A DNA stretch of 64,000 nucleotides from Calditrichota bacterium (GTDB lineage: Bacteria; Calditrichota; Calditrichia; Calditrichales; Calditrichaceae), in NCBI GenBank assembly GCA_024278755.1, contig JAJRSO010000075.1, positions 1 to 64,000 of the forward strand. The letters are read 5' to 3'. Of this stretch, positions 20,041 to 55,700 are shown piece by piece. A program made the position numbers and the translations under genes. Position 1 is the first letter of the stretch; each line of letters starts with the position of its first letter. A model generated the notes under the pieces. It saw nothing but the letters and a program-made list of their open reading frames with translations. It was not told the origin of the DNA and ran no database searches.

Positions 20041-21537
20041 ATGGAAATTTTTTCTGAATTATTAAATGGTTTTTCGGTAATTGCCGGCTTCGGCCCGTTA
20101 CTGATTATTCTGGCCGGCGTGATGATGGGTATTCTCGTGGGCGTTTTACCGGGGCTTTCCCCGGCCATGGGTGTCGCTTTGCTGGTACCCTTCAGTTATG
20201 GCATGTCGCCTTTAAATGCGATGATTCTTTTGGTGGCCGTCTATTCGGCAGCCAATTACGGGGGGACAATTACGGCCATTGCCATCAATACGCCGGGAAC
20301 GCCTTCGGCCATCGTTTCCACGTTTGACGGCTACCCGCTAACCAAACAGGGCAAGCCGGGCCGCGCCCTGGGCGCTTCGGTAATGGCGTCGGTGGTGGGC
20401 GGTTTTATGGGAACCATTATTCTGGTTTTCTTTTCCGTACCACTGGCCAAGGCGGCTTTAACCTTTGGTCCGCCAGAATATTTTGCCCTCGCTATTTTTG
20501 GCCTGACGATTATTTCGTCCCTATCTACCGGAAATTATATTAAGGCTTTTATTGCCACGTTAATTGGCCTGTTACTCAATACCATTGGGATGGATCCCTT
20601 TACCGGATATTTACGTTTTACCTTCGGTTTTGCGGAACTGGCGGACGGCTTCAGTTTTATTCCGGCCTTAATCGGCCTGTTTGCTTTAAGTGAAATCTTT
20701 TTAAGCATCGAGCGTTCGGTAACGACCAAGGAAGTTTTAAAGAAAGTTTCCGGGAGAATGCCCCGTTTAAAAGAGATGTGGCGGATCAAACGCATTGTGC
20801 TGCAATCCTCTTTTATCGGAACGGTAATCGGCGTGGTTCCCGGCGCGGGAGCGACCATTGCCGCCTTTATTGCTTACAACGAAGCCAAACGTTCCAGTAA
20901 AAATAAAGAAGAATTTGGAAAAGGAGCGCTGGAAGGCGTTGCCGCTTCCGGGGCGGCAACCAGCGGTTCGGTGGGCGGCGCTTTAGTGCCGCTGCTGACT
21001 CTCGGTATTCCTGGGAGCGCGGCAACGGCGGTGTTAATCGGCGCGTTGATGCTGCACGGTTTAACCCCGGGGCCGGAACTGTTTAAGGATAAATCCACCA
21101 TTGTGTTCGGCATCTTTGCCAGTCTGTTTGTGGCTTACTTTTTTATGCTGTTTCTCGGAATCATCGGCAACCAGTTGTGGATAAAAATCATCTCCGCACC
21201 CAAAGCGCTGCTTAATCCGGCCATTCTGGCCATCGCTTTTATCGGCAGTTACGCCGTGGGCAACTCCATGTTTGACGTGTGGGCCTGCCTGGGCTTTGGC
21301 GTGCTGGGCTGGCTTTTACGGCGCTACGATTTTCCAACGGCGCCGGTTATTCTCGGACTAATTTTAGGGTTTCTGGCAGAAACCAATTTCCGCAGAGCGC
21401 TGCTGATGGGCGACGGGAAAATCTTTTTTGAACGTCCGATCAGTTTAATTATGTTAATCCTGGCCGCTTTGTCTTTATTTTGGCCCATTATAAGTGCGGC
21501 GTTTAAAAAGAGAAAAGAATTGGGAAAAACTAAATAA
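20041..21537 (+). CDS. tctA: Tripartite tricarboxylate transporter large permease TctA
   Basis: 498 residues with about 11-12 transmembrane helices, the usual TctA size. Signature stretches include GILVGVLPGLSPAMGVALLVPF (about 35-56), NYGGTITAIAINTPGTPSAI (about 75-94) with the GTPSA loop, the FGPPEYFALA segment, and the second half VVPGAGATIAAFIAYNEAKR and PLLTLGIPGSAATAVLIGALM, showing the pseudo-twofold repeat of the family. It starts at the base after the TctCB stop codon, so the two are surely co-translated. It should carry a di- or tricarboxylate with the help of the fused binding protein. No lesions. Confidence 0.95.
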   Translation: MEIFSELLNGFSVIAGFGPLLIILAGVMMGILVGVLPGLSPAMGVALLVPFSYGMSPLNAMILLVAVYSAANYGGTITAIAINTPGTPSAIVSTFDGYPLTKQGKPGRALGASVMASVVGGFMGTIILVFFSVPLAKAALTFGPPEYFALAIFGLTIISSLSTGNYIKAFIATLIGLLLNTIGMDPFTGYLRFTFGFAELADGFSFIPALIGLFALSEIFLSIERSVTTKEVLKKVSGRMPRLKEMWRIKRIVLQSSFIGTVIGVVPGAGATIAAFIAYNEAKRSSKNKEEFGKGALEGVAASGAATSGSVGGALVPLLTLGIPGSAATAVLIGALMLHGLTPGPELFKDKSTIVFGIFASLFVAYFFMLFLGIIGNQLWIKIISAPKALLNPAILAIAFIGSYAVGNSMFDVWACLGFGVLGWLLRRYDFPTAPVILGLILGFLAETNFRRALLMGDGKIFFERPISLIMLILAALSLFWPIISAAFKKRKELGKTK

Positions 21538-47041: not shown

Positions 47042-47736
47042 ATATGTTGCGAATGAATTCCGTCACAAAAATCTATTCCGGCAAAAAGGTGCTGGAAAAC
47101 CTCTCTCTGAAAATTGTAAAAGGAGAGCGGATTGTGATTCTGGGCCCCTCCGGTTGCGGTAAAACAACGGTTCTTCGGCTGGCTGCGGGATTTATAGAAG
47201 CGAATGGCGGGTCTGTTTTTATAAACGAAAAACTGGTTTCAAAAAACAACCGGATTCTGATACCTCCCGAGCAACGGAACCTGGGAATGGTTTTTCAGGA
47301 CCTGGCTCTTTGGCCGCATTTAAGCGTCTATGGGAATATTGCCTTTGGACTAAAGGCTAAAGGCGTTGGAAAGCAGGAGCGGGAAGAGCGAATCCAAAAA
47401 ACTCTGATACTTGTGGGAATGGATGCTTTTGCCAAACGTAAACCGGCCGAATTGTCCGGCGGACAGCAGCAACGAGTGGCGTTGGCCCGGGCGTTGGTTA
47501 TGGAACCGGGCCTACTGTTAATGGATGAGCCGCTTTCCAGTTTGGACTTAGAACTAAATATTCGCTTACGTAAGGAGATTCTTCGGCTGCAGGAAAAATT
47601 AGGATTTACACTGCTATACGTAACGCATGCTCGCGAAGAAGCCTTTGGCATTGCCAGCAGGATAATTATTCTTAACAAAGGGCAAGTGGCATTTGACGGA
47701 ACGGTAGAAGAGGCGGAGAAATACTTAAAACGTTGA
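47038..47736 (+). CDS. Fe(III) ABC transporter ATP-binding protein (FbpC type)
   Basis: 232 residues. Walker A LGPSGCGKTT (about 36-45), Q-loop GMVFQDLALWPHL, signature ELSGGQQQRVALARAL (about 137-152), Walker B LLLMDEPLSSLD and the switch His in YVTHAREEA. The C-terminus ends soon after (VEEAEKYLKR), so the regulatory domain found in longer FbpC/PotA proteins is lacking. The start ATG overlaps the permease TGA. Transcription likely ends before the tRNA array encoded on the other strand. Confidence 0.93.
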   Translation: MNMLRMNSVTKIYSGKKVLENLSLKIVKGERIVILGPSGCGKTTVLRLAAGFIEANGGSVFINEKLVSKNNRILIPPEQRNLGMVFQDLALWPHLSVYGNIAFGLKAKGVGKQEREERIQKTLILVGMDAFAKRKPAELSGGQQQRVALARALVMEPGLLLMDEPLSSLDLELNIRLRKEILRLQEKLGFTLLYVTHAREEAFGIASRIIILNKGQVAFDGTVEEAEKYLKR

Positions 47737-47780
47737 GATTTTATATTCAGAGTAGCAGACGGGTTTTGATTTTTAAATAA

Positions 47781-47833
47781 TCGGGAAACTCGCAACTTTC
47801 CCGACGTGTCGGGATGCTCCAAGCAAAATGAAC
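47781..47833 (-). repeat. Decayed tRNA-Asp copy A (3'-truncated)
   Basis: On the minus strand 47833 to 47781 reads GTTCATTTTGCTTGGAGC, then TCCCGACACGTCGGGA, then AAGTTGCGAGTT. The first and last parts match the D-arm and T-arm of the intact tRNA-Asp at 47981-48055, but the anticodon arm is replaced by a 6-bp palindrome. The T-arm's 3' side and acceptor are gone. It is identical in sequence to the same part of copy B 109 bp away. Confidence 0.65.
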
Positions 47834-47835
47834 AT

Positions 47836-47867
47836 AAAAAAAGGGAAGCCAAAAATGACATCCCTTT
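47836..47867 (-). terminator. Terminator-like hairpin between tRNA copies A and B
   Basis: On the minus strand AAAGGGATGTCATTTTTGG and CTTCCCTTTTTTTAT form a stem of seven pairs ending in a T-run. It is an exact duplicate of 47945-47976, which follows the intact tRNA. Confidence 0.7.
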
Positions 47868-47871
47868 AAAG

Positions 47872-47942
47872 CGGTCGGGATCCCGAGAATCGGGAAACTC
47901 GCAACTTTCCCGACGTGTCGGGATGCTCCAAGCAAAATGAAC
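47872..47942 (-). repeat. Decayed tRNA-Asp copy B
   Basis: On the minus strand it reads GTTCATTTTGCTTGGAGC (D-arm-like), TCCCGACACGTCGGGA (palindrome in place of the anticodon arm), AAGTTGCGAGTT, then TCCCGATTCTCGGGA and TCCCGACCG at the acceptor position. The acceptor 5' strand is missing. Plus-strand 47781-47876 and 47890-47985 are identical over 96 bp, so the unit of tRNA plus terminator was duplicated. Confidence 0.65.
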
Positions 47943-47944
47943 AT

Positions 47945-47976
47945 AAAAAAAGGGAAGCCAAAAATGACATCCCTTT
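47945..47976 (-). terminator. Rho-independent terminator of tRNA-Asp
   Basis: On the minus strand, five bases after the tRNA, AAAGGGA pairs with TCCCTTT around a 14-base loop and ends in TTTTTTTAT. This is a good factor-independent terminator for the tRNA transcript. Confidence 0.8.
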
Positions 47977-47980
47977 AAAG

Positions 47981-48055
47981 CGGTCCGGACGAGACTCGAA
48001 CTCGCAACTTCCTGCGTGACAGGCAGGTGCTCTAACCAAATTGAACTACCGGACC
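47981..48055 (-). tRNA. tRNA-Asp (anticodon GTC)
   Basis: Read on the minus strand from 48055. Acceptor GGTCCGG pairs with CCGGACC, discriminator G as expected for Asp. D-arm GTTC...GAGC; anticodon arm CCTGC-CTGTCAC-GCAGG with GTC in the loop; T-arm GCGAG-TTCGAGT-CTCGT. No CCA is encoded. It ends in front of a strong terminator at 47945-47976, and two decayed copies of tRNA plus terminator follow downstream. No other tRNA was seen in the window. Confidence 0.95.
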
Positions 48056-48228
48056 TTTTTTATTATCATTGTATTTCAAACGAGCACCCAATATAAAAAA
48101 AGAATTAATCTGAGTCAACTCGGTTTGTGAACTTTTTTTTAGTTGAATTAAAGCAAATAAAAAATTCGTTAAATATATATTAATTTGTGACGATAAATAT
48201 CAACGGTATTTACTAAGCGGAAAAACCG

Positions 48229-49464
48229 ATGCTGGATCGAAAACAAAAAATTAATCGTCTTTTGCAATTTGGTATCGAAATCAATCAGGTAGCCGATCTG
48301 GATTTATTGATAGAAAAGATACTAAGTGAAGCGCGTTTTTTATTAAAAGCCGACGCCGGATCAATATATATCCGTGATGAAGATAAATTAAATTTCAGTT
48401 ATGCGCAAAATGACACTCTGCAAAAAAAGCTGGCGCCCAATAAAAAGCTGATCTACACGACGTTTTCGATGCCCATCAATAACAATTCAATCGCCGGGTT
48501 TGTAGCCAATAATGGCTCCGTTTTAAATATTCCCGATGCCTATAAAATATCCAAAGCCCTGCCATTTTCATTCGACGGCAGTTATGATAAAATTAGTGGT
48601 TATCATACCCAGTCTATGTTAACCCTACCCATGAAAAACACACGAAAACAAATTATCGGTGTACTACAACTCATAAATGCATTGGACGAAAACGGTAAAA
48701 CGATTCCCTTTCGGGAAGAAGATGAACCCATTGTTCAGCATTTAACCATGTATGCCGCAAATGCCATCGAGCGGGCACAGATGACCCGGACTACAATTAT
48801 GCGTATGATCAGCATGGCGGAATTGCGCGACCCAAAGGAAACCGGTCCGCATGTTAACCGGGTAGCGACATATGCCGTAGAATTATACGAGGCGTACGCT
48901 CAGAGGAAAGGCATTCCACAAGAAGAAATAGATGCATTGCGCGATAAATTTCGTCTGGCCGCGATGCTGCACGACGTTGGAAAAGTGGCAATTTCGGATG
49001 TAATCTTGAAAAAACCGGGCCGATTTACACCGGAAGAATTCGAAATAATGAAACAACATTCCGTACTTGGAGCGCGGTTGTTTGCGGAGGCTCGTTCGGA
49101 ATTTGATGAGTTTTCGGCGTTGGTTGCCTTAAATCATCATGAGCGTTGGGACGGGAAAGGCTATCCGGGCCATATTGATGTTAAAACCGGAGAAGCCCTG
49201 AAAGGGAAGAGCGACGAAAACGGAAAACCCCTTGGTAAAAAGGGAGAAGAAATTCCTCTGTTTGGCCGTATTGTTTCCCTGGCCGATGTGTTCGACGCTC
49301 TTAGTTCCCGCCGCATTTATAAAGACGCCTGGGATGAAGAGAAAGTTTTATCCATAATCAGAGAAGAGAGCGGCGGACAATTTGATCCGGAACTGGTTGA
49401 TATTTTCTTTGAAATCATCGATGTCATTCGCTCCGTACGTGAACGCTATCCGGACGATATGTAG
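48229..49464 (+). CDS. GAF plus HD-GYP cyclic-di-GMP phosphodiesterase-like protein
   Basis: 411 residues, cytosolic. The N-terminal GAF domain (about 15-185) includes EARFLLKADAGSIYI, the NSIAGFVANNGSVLNIPDAY strand-helix and SMLTLPMKN. The C-terminal HD-GYP domain (about 190-400) has LHDVGK (about 246) and HHERWDGKGYP (about 305), the full signature needed to hydrolyse cyclic-di-GMP, plus RIVSLADVFDALSSRR. An insertion after GYPG (KTGEALKGKSDENG...) lengthens the loop. The GAF ligand is unknown. Together with the GGDEF-EAL protein at 32886 it points to cyclic-di-GMP control in this cell. It stands alone. Confidence 0.93.
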   Translation: MLDRKQKINRLLQFGIEINQVADLDLLIEKILSEARFLLKADAGSIYIRDEDKLNFSYAQNDTLQKKLAPNKKLIYTTFSMPINNNSIAGFVANNGSVLNIPDAYKISKALPFSFDGSYDKISGYHTQSMLTLPMKNTRKQIIGVLQLINALDENGKTIPFREEDEPIVQHLTMYAANAIERAQMTRTTIMRMISMAELRDPKETGPHVNRVATYAVELYEAYAQRKGIPQEEIDALRDKFRLAAMLHDVGKVAISDVILKKPGRFTPEEFEIMKQHSVLGARLFAEARSEFDEFSALVALNHHERWDGKGYPGHIDVKTGEALKGKSDENGKPLGKKGEEIPLFGRIVSLADVFDALSSRRIYKDAWDEEKVLSIIREESGGQFDPELVDIFFEIIDVIRSVRERYPDDM

Positions 49465-55559: not shown

Positions 55560-55700
55560 CCTGAATGGAGCGATAATCCTTTAGCTCGTTATTGAACCTG
55601 TCCTTGCGATCCCGAAGCATCGGGAGTACTAATCTTACGGTAGATCGCCACGTTCGCTGCGCTCACTCGCGATGACGACGCATGAATCGCTGAATTTAGG
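55560..55700 (-). mobile_element. 141-bp MITE-like element, copy 2
   Basis: Ends CCTGAATGGAGCGAT and ATCGCTGAATTTAGG are imperfect inverted repeats. The reverse complement matches 32700-32840 along its whole length with scattered changes, including ATCATCGCGAGTGAGCG-like, GGCGATCTAC and ACTCCCGATGCTT words in the same order. The flanks read TAAAA on the left and TAAAA on the right, a possible 5-bp target duplication. No coding capacity. Confidence 0.7.

Follow-up and report, generated by a model that had tools for sequence, protein, structure and literature searches.

What produces, beside an intact tRNA gene, a pair of broken copies of that gene in which an arm has been exchanged for a palindrome? 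The question is posed by a tRNA-Asp(GTC) locus in a 64,000-nucleotide stretch of a Calditrichota genome, the whole of which is referred to here as the window. The first-pass annotation of this DNA proposed that a tRNA and its terminator had been duplicated and had turned into a REP-like palindrome or a small structured RNA. Derivation from tRNA and terminator, and the substitution of a REP-like palindrome for an arm, are upheld by our analysis, but a one-off duplication become structured RNA is an incomplete account, first because the exchange of arm for hairpin recurs at other tRNAs, each with its own sequence, and second because the units of many relatives hold a small GIY-YIG gene. Judging from sequence, we think it likely that the window units are nuclease-less copies of a small tRNA-targeting, homing-type GIY-YIG mobile element.

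Organisation of the tRNA-Asp locus

All features of the locus lie on the minus strand. The tRNA-Asp(GTC) gene, the parent sequence and putative target, occupies 47980..48055, is recovered by ARAGORN and matches Rfam RF00005 with 65.6 bits; it is followed by a terminator-like hairpin and T-run at 47945..47981 (fold -13.8 kcal/mol, z -4.3), so that gene and terminator are as first annotated. A simple terminator scan did not detect this hairpin because an internal mismatch interrupts its stem, and a sigma-70/terminator scan of the locus gave nothing useful. The nearer unit (unit 1) begins with x'', a decayed D-arm half of tRNA-Asp (TTCATTTTGCTTGGAGCA, 47924..47941), and continues with palindrome P1, TCCCGACACGTCGGGA, in the anticodon arm position (47908..47923), with AAGTTGCGAGTT, which corresponds to the tRNA-Asp variable loop to T-stem (47896..47907), and with a second palindrome, P2, TCCCGATTCTCGGGA, in the T-arm position (47881..47895). 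A remnant of the tRNA acceptor 3' strand (47880-47871) then precedes a duplicate of the terminator-like hairpin and T-run (47836..47872), recognised by fold and sequence. The outer unit (unit 2), from 47832 to about 47779, repeats the decayed D-arm half x'' (47815..47832), P1 (47799..47814) and, at 47779..47798, AAGTTGCGAGTT with the left arm of P2 (TCCCGATT), where it is cut off inside its second palindrome, its terminator absent.

The earlier description of this arrangement holds in most respects. The anticodon arm is swapped for a palindrome in both copies, TCCCGACACGTCGGGA being exact at 47814-47799 and 47923-47908, and the second hairpin, at the T-arm, belongs to one copy, the nearer unit only. 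Two units of about 109 bp, each with its own terminator, had been claimed: the two repeats and their period of 109 bp are confirmed, but the locus has two terminators, one after tRNA-Asp and one after unit 1, and none in the outer unit. Units 1 and 2 have in common a 102-nt repeat with 99% identity, and TCCCGACACGTCGGGA with up to three mismatches gives six strand-matches in the window against 0.37 expected, a number reached in 0 of 100 shuffles; the window palindromes and the 102-nt repeat are thus far above chance. Across 47600-48300 tRNA is the sole Rfam family above threshold, and the RtT family gives no match. A group I intron in the tRNA is ruled out, since no Rfam intron match appears up to E = 10 over the same interval and the tRNA-Asp is uninterrupted. 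No GIY-YIG gene was found on the window contig, and PF01541 is not found in the window units themselves.

The exchange recurs at other tRNA genes of the genome

The first-pass annotation had named the same unit occurring widely away from tRNAs as the finding that would speak for an ordinary repeat. In the 3.94-Mb genome the 109-bp unit is present at this locus only, all other matches up to E = 10 being tRNA-like or short-word matches, and a dispersed repeat inserted beside the tRNA is ruled out. The search for the palindrome next to tRNA genes, also proposed there, returns at least 12 within 150 bp of the genome's 47 tRNAs against 0.35 expected. Genome-wide, the palindrome type TCCCGA-N-TCGGGA occurs 79 times, compared with once for the reversed control, in part inside other repeat families.

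Arm-swapped copies adjoin tRNAs for Asp, Val, Glu (two isoacceptors), Gln, Ser (two isoacceptors) and Arg; at least seven tRNAs besides Asp are accompanied by copies of their own sequence with an arm exchanged for the same kind of hairpin. Those of Glu(ttc), Glu(ctc, twice), Gln(ctg), Ser(tga), Ser(gga) and Arg(acg) lie upstream of the gene; they start at tRNA base 1 and reach the anticodon arm (in Arg slightly beyond), where the palindrome follows. A shorter upstream copy at Lys(ctt) is doubtful. The upstream copies of Glu, Gln, Ser and Arg contain no ORF, and P2, TCCCGATTCTCGGGA, is also present in the Glu, Gln and Ser copies. In two paralogous Gln-Arg-Glu clusters, different members bear the copies. 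One end of contig C47 carries the 3' part of a tRNA-Val and, behind it in this order, a terminator, a short GIY-YIG ORF and a remnant of tRNA-Val, TGGTTTAGAGCA[TCCCGATTTTCAATCGGGA]GGGTCATAGGTTCGAATCC. This Val-type gene, above the PF01541 cut-off, is the only tRNA-type GIY-YIG gene found in the genome.

Two further observations concern repeats of other kinds. TCCCGA-N-TCGGGA hairpins seem to replace a stem in other dispersed repeats, for instance CATTGCGA[TCCCGAAGCATCGGGA]GT, with examples at 55610-55625 of the window and, elsewhere in the same genome (G000), at C16:2981-2996 and C7:9430-9445; the exchange may therefore extend beyond tRNAs. A second small GIY-YIG gene (L080; G000 C25, about 20590-20811), from the clade without tRNA linkage described below, is surrounded by arrayed copies of a different palindromic repeat (CTGGATTTCC...GTCATCCCCGCGCAGGCGGGGAACCAG), which suggests a wider association between GIY-YIG genes and repeats of this kind.

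Units with a nuclease gene in relatives

The architecture is found in Calditrichota, Ignavibacteriota and Bacteroidota. With the tRNA divided into a 5' part X, an arm S and a 3' part Y, a complete unit has the order tRNA, terminator, GIY-YIG ORF, 5'-truncated tRNA copy x'', palindrome P, second Y and terminator, P being G+C-rich and occupying the place of one tRNA arm. The ORF encodes a stand-alone GIY-YIG nuclease of about 80-100 codons, PF01541 exceeds its cut-off in relatives' units, and the units that we read are short, containing a GIY-YIG ORF or no ORF. At tRNA-Asp itself, families f1 and f2 show one or more units behind the tRNA, each composed of a remnant of the tRNA, a palindrome and the same terminator. 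In the tRNA-Asp units of G015 and G018 the stop of the GIY-YIG ORF lies a few bases from the next remnant (CACGCAGGAAGTTG[TCCCG..CGGGA]AGTCTCGTCCGGACCGCC), and G003, G005 and G008 have the same Asp-type arrangement on contigs that end before the tRNA. In G003 (L061) the anticodon-arm and T-arm palindromes and the terminator stand immediately 5' of the GIY-YIG ORF - this is the architecture of window unit 1, and a direct link for Asp.

Other loci add variants. The Val-type ORFs L079 (G000 C47), L170, L187 and L137 read into the tRNA remnant, so that the C-terminus of the protein is translated tRNA sequence (GLEHPDFQSGGS and similar). Behind a tRNA-Ala(ggc) in G020 (L303), nuclease-less units that bear a T-arm hairpin are repeated in tandem with a period of about 88 bp, resembling the window, and in G006, a single contig of about 5.0 Mb, a tRNA-Ser(cga) has a series of upstream arm-swapped copies and a GIY-YIG gene that begins 1 bp past it (L162). 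Draft genomes often break right at these tRNA arrays (e.g. G015 C37, G007 C98, G003 C136, G004 C268), and counts of tRNA genes and of the element in MAGs are consequently too low.

Nuclease subfamilies follow tRNA isotype

We sampled the small GIY-YIG genes of 40 relatives together with 80 named genome loci retrieved by a search with the Asp-type nuclease. The resulting tree of 144 domains, built on 89 columns only and with many open forks, splits them into two clades (support 95). In one (clade b), a same-strand tRNA lies within 1 kb in 70 of 73 judgeable cases, 16 more being too close to a contig end; in its sister (clade a), this is so in 2 of 44, with 11 more not judged. The usual distance from the tRNA to the start of a clade b gene is 0 to about 450 bp, and a remnant of the same tRNA comes next after the ORF. 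No tRNA occurs within 2 kb of the phage homologue LR756508, the nearest one checked, and a search of plasmids gave one weak match.

Within the tree, nuclease subfamilies track tRNA isotype, with 33 label changes against 61 after shuffling and 0 of 200 shuffles as low; Cys-type nucleases, for example, form one clade (support 97). This tracking spans Calditrichota, Ignavibacteriota, Bacteroidota and a few candidate phyla, and a phylogeny that follows the isotype is indirect evidence that the nuclease may have target specificity. The nuclease profile matches the UPF0213 structures 1zg2 (E = 8e-11) and 1ywl (E = 3e-8), and UPF0213/COG2827 small GIY-YIG proteins are the nearest relatives of solved structure by sequence; in contrast to the tRNA-linked proteins, the sampled sister clade shows no linkage to tRNA genes. 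Small GIY-YIG proteins of UPF0213 type are common and carry no functional assignment.

The hairpin scar

How regular is the exchange of arm for hairpin? We collected a scar set of 156 places where foreign sequence separates two blocks of a nearby tRNA. Hairpins flush with the breaks and with a stem of at least 6 fill 75 of the 156 gaps, compared with 0.7 expected after shuffling. The break points are characteristic of the isotype: 28^46 for Val, 27^45 for Glu, 27^45, 50^59 or 56^66 for Asp, 37^56 for Cys, 36^47 for both Asn and Met, 54^55 for Thr and 67^68 for Leu, although the Thr inserts are longer and do not form simple flush hairpins. Among the left arms there are twenty different six-base sequences, each still paired with its right arm, so that sequence varies without loss of pairing. 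In 8 of 76 pairs, different tRNA types of one genome have a palindrome in common (0.5 expected). The remnants lack the 5' strand of the acceptor stem and a large part of the D-arm, and both break points and truncations vary from locus to locus.

Occupied and empty sites

The tRNA-Thr of G016 is associated with a nuclease-less unit, a nuclease unit and another nuclease-less unit, the nuclease-less ones of about 100 bp. That such units flank a nuclease unit argues that nuclease-less units like those of the window belong to the same arrays. Three nuclease units stand in tandem in Flavobacterium seoulense and two in Aurantibacter, and in Litoribacter three upstream nuclease-less copies adjoin a nuclease unit. 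In the congener G019 the tRNA-Thr is identical to that of G016 and has no unit, the neighbouring gene being related; this is an empty site. In the occupied G016, the tRNA-Thr is intact and unaltered and only the remnant is changed. The identity of the tRNA in occupied and empty genomes implies that the element gains no protection from an altered target, the means by which classical homing elements protect themselves, and we therefore claim that it works like a homing element, not that it is strictly a member of that class.

A probable homing-type origin and its alternatives

Taken together, these sequences are probably best accounted for by a homing-type cycle, with cleavage and movement as its presumed steps. 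An isotype-specific GIY-YIG nuclease would cut the tRNA gene at an arm, and repair from an occupied copy would insert the unit, rebuilding the tRNA on one side and leaving a broken copy on the other. Because the rebuilt tRNA would remain a target, repeated cutting and repair could make tandem arrays grow or shrink, and units such as those in the window would have decayed after loss of the nuclease gene. As to palindrome P, our guess is that it could be part of what the nuclease recognises, or could block re-cutting of the remnant. It counts against this reading that no GIY-YIG gene was found on the contig and that the only tRNA-type gene found in the genome is Val-type: movement of the Asp units would have to be old or to have occurred in trans. 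On this view the window units are copies from which the nuclease gene has gone, either old ones or non-autonomous ones. The upstream ORF-less copies (Glu, Gln, Ser, Arg) are not covered by the simplest form of this model, and they suggest that repair can also proceed from the other end of the break.

An ordinary tandem duplication of tRNA and terminator, followed by insertion of a REP-like palindrome spread by a RAYT, would be in keeping with the 79 copies of TCCCGA-N-TCGGGA (1 in the reversed control), many of them in other repeats, with the palindromes common to different tRNA types (8 of 76 pairs, 0.5 expected) and with the presence of one Y1 transposase in the genome. However, this sole Y1 (RAYT-like) transposase (L324, G000 C16) is flanked by GAGCTTTAGCTC-type REPs and not by TCCCGA, and with other repeats at the Y1_Tnp locus we do not class the units as RAYT-mobilised REPs. 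The palindrome, moreover, directly abuts break points specific to the isotype, in place of an arm, and goes together with nucleases of the matching type, which is not expected from random REP insertion, and we consider this origin unlikely.

It is less probable still that the units are functional structured or tRNA-like small RNAs, for instance decoys against tRNA-cutting toxins. Unit 1 folds somewhat better than its shuffles, though with a modest score (z -2.6), a terminator is kept, and stems change sequence yet stay paired; set against this, the remnants have lost the 5' acceptor strand and a good part of the D-arm, no terminator closes the outer unit, break points and truncations vary among loci, and the units match no Rfam family. 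That the units are attachment-site duplications from a conventional integrase-bearing island using tRNA genes, in which part of the tRNA 3' end is likewise duplicated downstream, is very improbable, as the units are short with only a GIY-YIG ORF or nothing inside, the breaks fall inside the tRNA with a palindrome added, upstream copies with the tRNA 5' half also exist, and no recombinase gene lies between copies in the loci read here.

The homing-type reading can be extended to a broader proposition, which we advance as a serious but tentative possibility: that Calditrichota, Ignavibacteriota and Bacteroidota harbour a widespread class of minimal mobile elements with stand-alone, isotype-specific GIY-YIG nucleases. 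These would open a tRNA gene at one stem-loop and restore the tRNA, leaving behind a copy whose stem-loop has given way to a hairpin peculiar to the element, and this hairpin would itself take part in recognition or in the chemistry of transposition. The exchange of arm for hairpin may well point to something less ordinary than a free-standing GIY-YIG homing element.

Relation to known systems

The rtT repeats of E. coli tyrT form a tandem array behind a tRNA and include a bit of the tRNA 3' end in every copy; these have, to our knowledge, no arm-replacing palindrome and no nuclease ORF, and are limited to a single locus. REP/REPIN sequences with their RAYT (a Y1 transposase) are similar in that short G+C-rich palindromes, many per genome, go with a single-domain nuclease gene, but here the nuclease is GIY-YIG and the palindrome takes the place of a tRNA arm beside the parent tRNA. 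The closest known system is SegB of phages T4 and T6, in which a GIY-YIG nuclease likewise adjoins tRNA genes: a free-standing homing endonuclease often found near such genes, it is reported to cut tRNA-containing DNA and to drive tandem amplification of tRNA-Tyr and segB (PMC13096335). SegB differs in being phage-borne and in being reported without isotype preference, and its description mentions neither palindromes nor an exchange of a hairpin for an arm (PMC13096335). The proteins described here, in contrast, are single-domain, UPF0213-like and follow the tRNA isotype.

In the open-access literature, our search found no description of the element, no GIY-YIG protein paired with repetitive extragenic palindromes, and no paper joining UPF0213 with tRNA or a homing endonuclease with a tRNA gene and Bacteroidetes; the parts consulted of a survey of the GIY-YIG superfamily (PMC1564403) do not mention tRNA-gene neighbours.

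Implications

One large clade of UPF0213-type proteins gains a testable target, a specific tRNA gene, and the exchange of a tRNA arm for a hairpin provides a signature that can be searched for. A source is thereby offered for tandem tRNA pseudo-copies, together with a warning that such arrays break assemblies at tRNA genes. Finally, these observations suggest that essential tRNA genes may serve as homing sites on bacterial chromosomes, in parallel to phage SegB.
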